Assembly (NCBI RefSeq): GCF_019879105.1
Contig: NZ_CP082249.1
Span: 1,364,001-1,428,000 of the forward strand
Direction: 5' to 3'
DNA: 64,000 nt
From: Natrinema sp. SYSU A 869
GTDB taxonomy: Archaea > Halobacteriota > Halobacteria > Halobacteriales > Natrialbaceae
The translations under genes were made by a program, and so were the position numbers. The notes under the pieces are model-generated. The model made no database searches, was not told the origin of the DNA, and saw nothing but the letters and a program-made list of their open reading frames with translations. Positions 31,632 through 63,032 of this stretch are shown here, piece after piece; within the stretch, counting starts at the first letter, position 1; the number at the start of each line of letters is the position of its first letter.

Positions 31632-32158
31632 CGATCGGTCTCCCCACGCAGAGCAGTGGCGAACCGACGAGGGTGGCGCGCGCTGGGACGCGATGATCCG
31701 ATTCGAATCGCGGCGCAAACTTGTGCAAGGGATAAGCGAACGACCGCTGGGAGTGAGCGTTAGCGCGGAACCGACGGTTCCGCGAACTATGCGAATAGTG
31801 CGGGACCGGCGGTCCCGCATACCGTGCGAACGGGCCGTCGGCCCGTGAGCAGAGGGCGCTACGCGCCCGTGAGCAGAAATTGGTTGGGGAGGGCGTGGCG
31901 ATTCCGTGTTGCCACGAGAGCAGGGCGCTTCTCTGGTTAGTTACTCTCGATCTCACTGATTGATTTATAATGGCCCTCCGTAGTTATTCTCCGCCGAGAA
32001 GTGCTCGAGCCGAAGATGTGAACGACTCTACTGATTGCAACCGACTCGAGGCCCGTTTTCGGACCGACCGCCCGGCGGACGGTGTCGACGGGGTGGTGTG
32101 GTGGTTCGATCGACACCGCCGAGCGGCCGGCTGACCGCCGGGACTCGAGGCCGAGCCC
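31632..32158. other. Non-coding stretch around the hairpin array
   Basis: No convincing gene. Open frames on both strands here are produced by GC-rich palindromes. Apart from the hairpin array (31764-31916), only a short AT-rich segment near 31950-31990 stands out. Confidence 0.5.
31764..31916. repeat. Array of five GC-rich hairpins
   Basis: Four perfect hairpins each have a 3-base loop: CGCGGAACC-GAC (31764-31784), TGCGGGACC-GGC (31799-31819), ACGGGCC-GTC (31830-31846) and GGGCGC-TAC (31854-31868). A fifth looser one, CGTGGC/GCCACG, spans 31894-31916. The linkers after the third, fourth and fifth contain GAGCAG. The same linker (as TCTGCTC on the other strand) joins hairpins inside metY and occurs in gpmI. 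It lies in the non-coding stretch after 31631. Confidence 0.85.
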
Positions 32159-61694: not shown

Positions 61695-63032
61695 ATGATC
61701 GACGATCCGGACGACCATCGATTCGCCACGAACAGCGTCCACGCCGGCCAGGAGCCCGATCCAACCACGGGAGCCCGCGCGCCGCCGCTGTACCAGACCA
61801 CCTCCTACCAGTTCGAGGACACCGAGCACGCCGCTGCCCTGTTCGGCCTCGAGGAGGCGGGCAACATCTACTCACGGATCATGAATCCGACGAACGCGAT
61901 GCTCGAGGAGCGCATCGCGACGCTCGAGGGCGGCGTCGACGCGTTAGCCACCTCGTCGGGAATGGCCGCCTTCGACCTCGCGACGTTCATCCTCGCGGAG
62001 GTCGGCGACAACATCGTCTCCTCGTCGTCGCTGTACGGCGGGACATACACCTACCTCACCCACACCGTCGAAAAGCGCGGCATCGAGACGAAGTTCGTCG
62101 ACACGCTAGAGTACGACGCCTACGAAGAGGCGATCGACGACGACACCGCGTTCGTTCACCTCGAGACGATCGGCAACCCCGCACTCGTCACGCCGGACAT
62201 CGAACGAATCGCCGATATCGCCCACGATCACGACGTGCCGCTGTTCGTTGACAACACCTTCGCGACGCCGTATCTCTGCCGGCCCCTCGAGCACGGTGCG
62301 GACCTGGTCTGGAACTCGACGACCAAGTGGATCCACGGCGCGGGGTCGACTGTCGGCGGAGTCCTCGTCGACGGCGGTTCCTTCCCATGGGAGGAGGGCA
62401 ACTATCCCGAGATCACCGAGCCGAATCCGGCCTACCACGGCGTGAACTTCCGGGAGACGTTCGGCGACATGGCATTCTCGGTTGTTGCCCGCACGCGCGG
62501 GCTTCGCGATCTGGGGAACCAGCAGGCCCCCTTCGACGCCTGGGTTACGCTCCAGAAACTCGAGTCGCTACCCCTGCGCATGGAGAAACACTGTGACAAC
62601 GCGATGGTCGTCGCAGAGTATCTCGAGGACCACTCGAACGTATCGTGGGTCAACTACCCGGGCCTCGAGAGCCACGAGACCCACGAGAACGCGACGGAGT
62701 ACCTCGATGGGGGCTACGGCGGCATGATCACCTTCGGGCTCGAGGGCGCTGACGGGTCCGACACGGACCCGTCTGCTCGCGAGACGTCGTCTCGAACTGG
62801 CTACGACGCCGCGGAAACGGTCTGTAACGAGGTCGACCTGACGAGCCTGCTGGCCAACGTCGGTGACGCGAAGACGCTGATCATCCATCCCGCGAGCACG
62901 ACCCACCAGCAGCTCACCGAGGAGGAGAAGCTGGCGGGCGGCGTGACCGACGACCTCGTGCGTCTTTCGGTGGGGATCGAAGATGTCGACGACGTCATCG
63001 CAGACCTCGATCAAGCGATCGAGAAGGTGTAA
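61695..63032 (+). CDS. metY: O-acetylhomoserine sulfhydrylase / aminocarboxypropyltransferase
   Basis: 445 residues. PLP enzyme of the Cys/Met metabolism family that makes homocysteine from O-acetylhomoserine and sulfide. It shows '[20 protein letters not shown]' (residues 16-35), '[14 protein letters not shown]' (184-197) and the PLP lysine Lys211 in NSTTKWIHG. The end has '[20 protein letters not shown]'. Residues about 351-369 ([19 protein letters not shown]) are an extra segment, encoded by two tandem hairpins, between 'ITFGLEG' and 'AAETVCNEV'. The start has a TATA box about 25 bases before it. Confidence 0.94.
62751..62794. repeat. Two tandem hairpins inserted in the metY reading frame
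   Basis: GACGGGTCCG-ACA-CGGACCCGTC (62751-62773), a perfect ten-pair stem with a 3-base loop, is followed by linker TGCTCG and CGAGAC-GTC-GTCTCG (62780-62794), a perfect six-pair stem with a 3-base loop. The segment keeps the reading frame. The linker and loop design match the intergenic array at 31764-31916. Confidence 0.85.

Follow-up and report, generated by a model that had tools for sequence, protein, structure and literature searches.

A triloop hairpin array in Natrinema is the variable middle of a structured repeat found across Halobacteria

The window analysed here, by which we mean the whole stretch of 64,000 nucleotides from Natrinema sp. SYSU A 869, contains at positions 31764-31916 four perfect hairpins with 3-base loops and stems of 9, 9, 7 and 6 bp (Table 1), together with a weaker fifth stem (GTGGC at 31895-31899 with GCCAC at 31911-31915) that has a longer loop and is hence no triloop. 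This is the densest triloop cluster in the 64 kb, and more than two such hairpins occur nowhere else in the window. When the 153 nt were subjected to 5,000 dinucleotide shuffles, 4,638 shuffles held no such hairpin, 346 held one and 16 held two, and a chance origin of the array is rejected because none exceeded two. Note that across the window triloop hairpins are only slightly more frequent than expected (38 versus 32 for stems of at least 6 bp, and 16 versus 8.7 for stems of at least 7 bp), indicating that the cluster itself is the anomaly. The hairpin-A motif has 17 perfect matches in the genome, A and A' counted, and all of them are on the main chromosome (contig C3). Regarding the linkers, GTGAGCAG follows the third and fourth hairpins, and GCGAAC and GCATAC follow the first and second, respectively; the array linker is a degenerate GYGARC and not a constant GAGCAG. 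The initial annotation had reported the four perfect stems and the weaker fifth, which are confirmed along with their departure from random expectation. It had also reported a shared GAGCAG linker, which is recurrent as described but is degenerate and no separate signal, since the GAGC(AG) linker is the 3' strand of a tandem-G.A helix such as GCGAAC-stem-NNN-stem-GTGAGC.

The array is not an independent unit. It forms the variable central part of a longer structured, non-coding repeat whose ends are conserved, and this copy spans approximately 31671-31930. Copies of this element commonly run in the order GGTGGCGCGCGCTG, a variable P1, GYGCGAGGGATGAGCGA, optional hairpins and the 3' block AATCGGYTGGGGAGGGYGTGG, and their length extends from a minimum of ~110 nt up to ~390 nt. 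Information content drops to the background level ~20 nt ahead of the 5' block and ~52 nt after the point where the 3' block begins. In the window copy, P2 is formed by GCGAACGACC-GCT-GGGAGTGAGC (31736-31745 with 31749-31758), which contains two tandem G.A pairs and the triloop GCT. The cassette of the window copy is expanded to ~118 nt with four hairpins by the A- and B-unit repeats given in Table 1, and in many copies it measures 61 nt with two hairpins. In copy L004 an additional hairpin, seen by eye, lies within the loop of B'. Downstream of the element there is also a long imperfect inverted repeat (arms 32068-32088 and 32110-32130) in a region that is partly conserved in genomes G001, G009 and G014.

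Table 1. Coordinates of the element and its parts in the window
Feature	Position	Strand	Description and basis
Whole element	31671..31930	+	ends approximate, +/-20 nt; alignment with the best BLAST copies, C3:3085378 (94%) and C3:2837388 (90%), and other copies
Conserved 5' block GGTGGCGCGCGCTG	31672..31685	+	near-invariant in 67 5'-anchored copies and 40 divergent copies
P1 stem-loop	31686..31716	+	e.g. CGCGAT 31689-31694 with ATCGCG 31707-31712; swap test, covariation
GTGCAAGGGATAAGCGA and P2 helix	31723..31759	+	family pattern ||oo||oo||; swap test
Hairpin cassette TTAGCG...GTGAGCAGA	31760..31877	+	exact insertion in L063/L133, L118/L145, L119/L135, L122/L147
Hairpin A	31764..31784	+	9 bp, loop GAC
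Hairpin A'	31799..31819	+	9 bp, loop GGC; 35-nt tandem duplicate of A unit
Hairpin B	31830..31846	+	7 bp, loop GTC
Hairpin B'	31854..31868	+	6 bp, loop TAC; 24-nt repeat of B/GTGAGCAGA unit
Conserved 3' block AATTGGTTGGGGAGGGCGTGG (family form AATCGGYTGGGGAGGGYGTGG)	31878..31898	+	profile, exact scan, divergent copies
3' stem GTGGC...GCCAC and tail	31895..31930	+	conserved mainly inside genus group

A BLAST search with positions 31740-31930 returned 58 matches in the same genome, all of them on the 3.9-Mb C3, with the 0.89- and 0.88-Mb contigs giving no match. A covariance model derived from 40 divergent copies, the E-values of which are rough, gave 34 matches in this genome, again all on C3. 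Across the class it matched 61 of 145 Halobacteria genomes, which represent 30 of 58 genera, and the richest genome has at least 26 matches. An exact scan of GTDB representatives for the 3' block returned at least 120 stretches and, among the matches listed (80), all belong to Halobacteria, with genera that include Natrinema, Haloterrigena, Natronococcus, Haladaptatus, Halorussus, Halogranum, Halococcus, Halobium, Halolamina, Halovenus and others. Since the GTDB scan itself selected on the 3' block, independent tests come from the 5' block and GCGAGGGATGA, both of them strongly conserved in the 40 divergent copies, and from the covariance model. Genomes of the genus carry anywhere from 0 (G012, G024) to more than 30 matches, and in the multi-replicon relatives G005, G008, G010, G018 and G021 every match listed is on the largest contig. 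Of 72,556 plasmid records, one, a 987-kb Natrinema thermotolerans record, carries a nearly full-length match (91% of the query), and the phage records searched for the element gave no match. This sole plasmid record (CP031304.1, 'plasmid unnamed6') has an inorganic diphosphatase gene and may be a piece of a chromosome that was entered as a plasmid. Searches of the open-access literature turned up no account of the repeat, and an earlier one may exist in subscription papers.

Individual copies are not fixed in position. Specifically, the window copy is missing next to the orthologous upstream gene in all 24 of the other genus genomes that have this gene, G011 (flanks 88-97% identical) and G008 lack copy L026, and G011 also lacks L012, with the flanks compared for empty sites being 3-12% diverged and the element ends approximate. 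The closer pair G010/G043 has most examined copies at matching positions. Copies thus appear to be inherited over the short term and turned over in the longer term; some of the absences could be deletions. A terminal inverted repeat was looked for in the element and none was seen.

With a simple, crude gene caller, 83 of 84 copies fall outside called genes. Their setting is convergent in 32 cases, tandem-sense in 18, tandem-antisense in 15 and divergent in 8; the copies thus avoid promoters and have no strand preference. Among doublets the convergent, tail-to-tail arrangement prevails with 12 cases, against 5 that are divergent or head to head and 1 that is tandem. Tail-to-tail pairs occur at G000:C3 2807803/2808029, 1075641/1075868, 2829400/2829667 and 3146041/3146307 with a unique spacer of ~110-150 nt. 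In the genera Haladaptatus (L171, L216, L235), Halorussus (L233) and Halobium (L191) the doublets have the head-to-head arrangement. A recurrent neighbour gene was sought and none was found beyond ordinary shared neighbourhoods; a speB/eIF5A neighbour coincidence was rejected, as the equal position is seen in just two Natrinema loci. The confinement to the main chromosome, the placement at 3' ends and between convergent genes and the tail-to-tail bias of the doublets would all suit a DNA site with a chromosomal role (a boundary, a transcription road-block or a recombination site between convergent genes) whose function keeps it on the main chromosome. However, the positions tested are not conserved past close sister species, copy number varies from none to more than 30 in one genus, and promoter avoidance alone accounts for the placement, and we regard such a site as rather unlikely.

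What the copies share in P1 is pairing, with the sequence being variable. Among 125 distinct P1 stems, 84% form at least six consecutive Watson-Crick pairs, as compared to 20% when arms are swapped between copies, and in RNAalifold counts up to 21 of 40 sequences have double compensatory changes at one pair. P2 shows the same behavior in a helix that is made of Watson-Crick pairs alternating with tandem G.A (5'-YGAR-3') and that ties the 5' half of the element to the 3' block. Here GATGAGCGAAC... pairs with ...GTGAGCGAATC, indicating that AATC of the 3' block is one P2 strand. All ten outer positions of P2 fit in 63% of copies versus 7% after swapping, and the pairs adjoining the G.A steps covary (T-A, C-G and A-T forms). 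Loop length was scored in 206 stems from 176 copies and is exactly 3 nt in 119 (shuffled, 5/46). The triloops are nearly all closed by C-G, with GNA present 34 times and TNC 31 times.

Strong covariation in a multi-helix architecture, with sequence blocks conserved class-wide, is what would be expected of a structured ncRNA family with optional expansion helices that is transcribed from many chromosomal loci. A slight, non-significant excess of G.T over A.C among isolated stem mismatches (8 versus 3, P = 0.23) would point the same way. This reading is nevertheless unlikely in our judgement. A sequence test of 158 copies found no TATA-like or AT-rich box upstream and no T-run downstream, and the lack of strand preference in tandem settings noted above speaks against a cis-acting RNA. 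In Rfam 15 the only match at the gathering score is the window's tRNA, with the element loci (n=4) unmatched at E up to 5. Furthermore, the loops are triloops and not the GNRA or UNCG tetraloops usual in structured RNA, and GNA is about as frequent as TNC, which suggests that either strand may fold or that loops invert. Most loops are triloops of the C-NNN-G type, frequently GNA or TNC, which fits a single-stranded DNA fold better than RNA, and we lean toward single-stranded DNA as the more likely folded form. C(GNA)G triloops and YGAR tandem G.A pairs are known in stable single-stranded DNA folds. AGCGA-rich DNA also forms tetrahelices (PMC5442326), and at Streptomyces telomeres there are palindromes with arrays of GNA-capped stem-loops, sheared purine-purine pairs and a single-stranded DNA fold (PMC7205883). 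The element would resemble the latter in these respects, but it is chromosome-internal, is present in many copies and has no suggested telomere role.

Comparison of orthologous copies indicates how the variable middle changes. Optional cassettes sit at fixed sites and change as units between such copies. For example, a corresponding copy in the sister genomes G010 and G043 differs by a 61-nt two-hairpin insertion directly before AATCGG. This insertion has the form TTAGCGCGG[R]ACC-NNN-...-GTGAG[Y]AGA and is exact in the four locus pairs that Table 1 lists for the cassette. The pair L120/L123 has a 49-nt cassette difference at GCGAG^GGATGAGCGA, and in L128/L152 the P1 and 3' block are near-identical with all between them different, an entire arm swap. 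Cassettes that were swapped, gained or lost between sister species measure 49-63 nt, and strain pairs provide material for watching hairpins being gained, lost and swapped. The initial annotation had noted that stem sequences vary with geometry and linker kept, and had proposed selection on shape or a copying mechanism. Conservation of shape is borne out by the P1 swap test, and a copying mechanism by the cassette changes between sister genomes.

Extragenic, palindromic repeats dispersed in dozens of copies are well represented by the RAYT-associated REP/BIME/REPIN families of bacteria, and the element shares with them these traits as well as a mosaic make-up, frequent inverted doublets and promoter avoidance. 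It could therefore be a member of such a family, mobilised by a RAYT (Y1) transposase. It is, however, much longer, has two blocks and optional cassettes, is found here in Halobacteria only, and is present without a Y1 transposase. Specifically, genomes G004, G006, G008, G020, G021 and G043 have more than 20 element matches and no Y1_Tnp match, and in G012, G016 and G024 the Y1_Tnp matches number 3-7 and those to the element 0-1. This lack of co-occurrence with copy number refutes RAYT/Y1 mobilisation for Y1 enzymes detectable by PF01797. Membership in the REP/BIME family thus seems extremely improbable; the element works like that family and by the tests done is not a member.

The explanation that we favor, and hold with about even confidence, is that the array is the variable hairpin domain of a non-autonomous, intergenic, chromosomal repeat of Halobacteria whose hairpins are exchanged between copies. 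Selection would act on a single strand in its folded form, with DNA more probable than RNA. Cassettes would pass from copy to copy through recombination or gene conversion, with the conserved blocks priming the exchange, new hairpins might arise or invert via template switching in palindromes, and whole copies may rarely spread as a foldback element whose conserved blocks are recognised by a putative factor. A search for the mover gave no recurring neighbour gene and no Y1 transposase whose presence tracks copy number. Confinement to the main chromosome is uncommon among mobile elements and counts against this explanation. More tentatively, the element may be a new class of chromosome-restricted foldback element that evolves by whole-hairpin cassette exchange between dispersed copies without a Y1 transposase, with folded single-stranded DNA (G.A-zipped helices and GNA triloops) as the conserved object. 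A class-wide archaeal repeat in which the fold is kept, the sequence is free and helices are exchanged as units amounts to a natural experiment in nucleic-acid structure evolution. Should the folded form be DNA, the repeat would also offer a rare example of selection that acts within chromosomes on the shape of single-stranded DNA.

Cassettes are also found without the element blocks, as a solitary module on C3 near 2,076,500 and on plasmids, where some adjoin TnpB. This bears on the possibility that the element is a PATE or omega-RNA-like remnant of IS200/IS605-TnpB transposons. Indeed, on Halostagnicola and Natronorubrum plasmids the double hairpin is found alongside TnpB genes, and in the Natrinema genome one TnpB gene has a GCGAACGGC-GTC-AGCCGTGAGC hairpin at its 3' end. 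The element also lacks coding capacity and showed no terminal inverted repeat, in keeping with such a remnant. However, neither the 5' nor the 3' block is present at the 17 TnpB genes of this genome (best E 0.03, non-significant), 12 of these 17 genes are on contigs C1/C2 where the element was not found, and several element-rich genomes have no Y1 transposase. Membership is thus largely refuted, as the hairpin module is common to some plasmid TnpB flanks and the element blocks are not, and we consider an IS605 or PATE origin quite improbable. The PATE, MITE and SMR repeats of Haloquadratum walsbyi (PMC3119063) are similar to the element in being transposase-free haloarchaeal repeats with near-end palindromes and small repeats nested into palindromes; they have no obvious target duplication. 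They differ in that PATE palindromes resemble those of IS605 transposons (PMC3119063), whereas the element showed no similarity to IS605 ends here, conserves pairing with a free palindrome sequence in P1, is on the main chromosome only in the genomes examined and exchanges cassettes at fixed sites. No known family tested accounts for the element.

A hairpin module also seems, judging from the sequence, to have entered a coding gene in frame. The metY gene (O-acetylhomoserine sulfhydrylase; window 61695-63032, + strand) has a 17-residue insertion relative to solved homologues that is encoded, at ~62750-62800, by two triloop hairpins joined by TGCTCGC. The array had been suggested as the source form of this metY element. 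That suggestion is supported in part, in that metY has the two-hairpin insertion and solitary modules exist elsewhere; direct derivation from the array is only a possibility. The metY case is like that of Rickettsia palindromic elements, which are short hairpin modules in frame inside protein genes, the difference being that the element in its main form lies between genes and has conserved blocks at its ends. The element would account for the GAGCGA-rich hairpins that recur in the intergenic DNA of haloarchaea, in TnpB flanks and even in coding genes. Finally, in the Halostagnicola and Natronorubrum plasmid loci L319, L321 and L322 the TnpB-flanking double hairpin occurs without element blocks, and in two of these records it is located between CCCACCCT and TGGGG arms; this TnpB-flanking module may represent one arm of the transposon end or else the guide RNA of the transposon.
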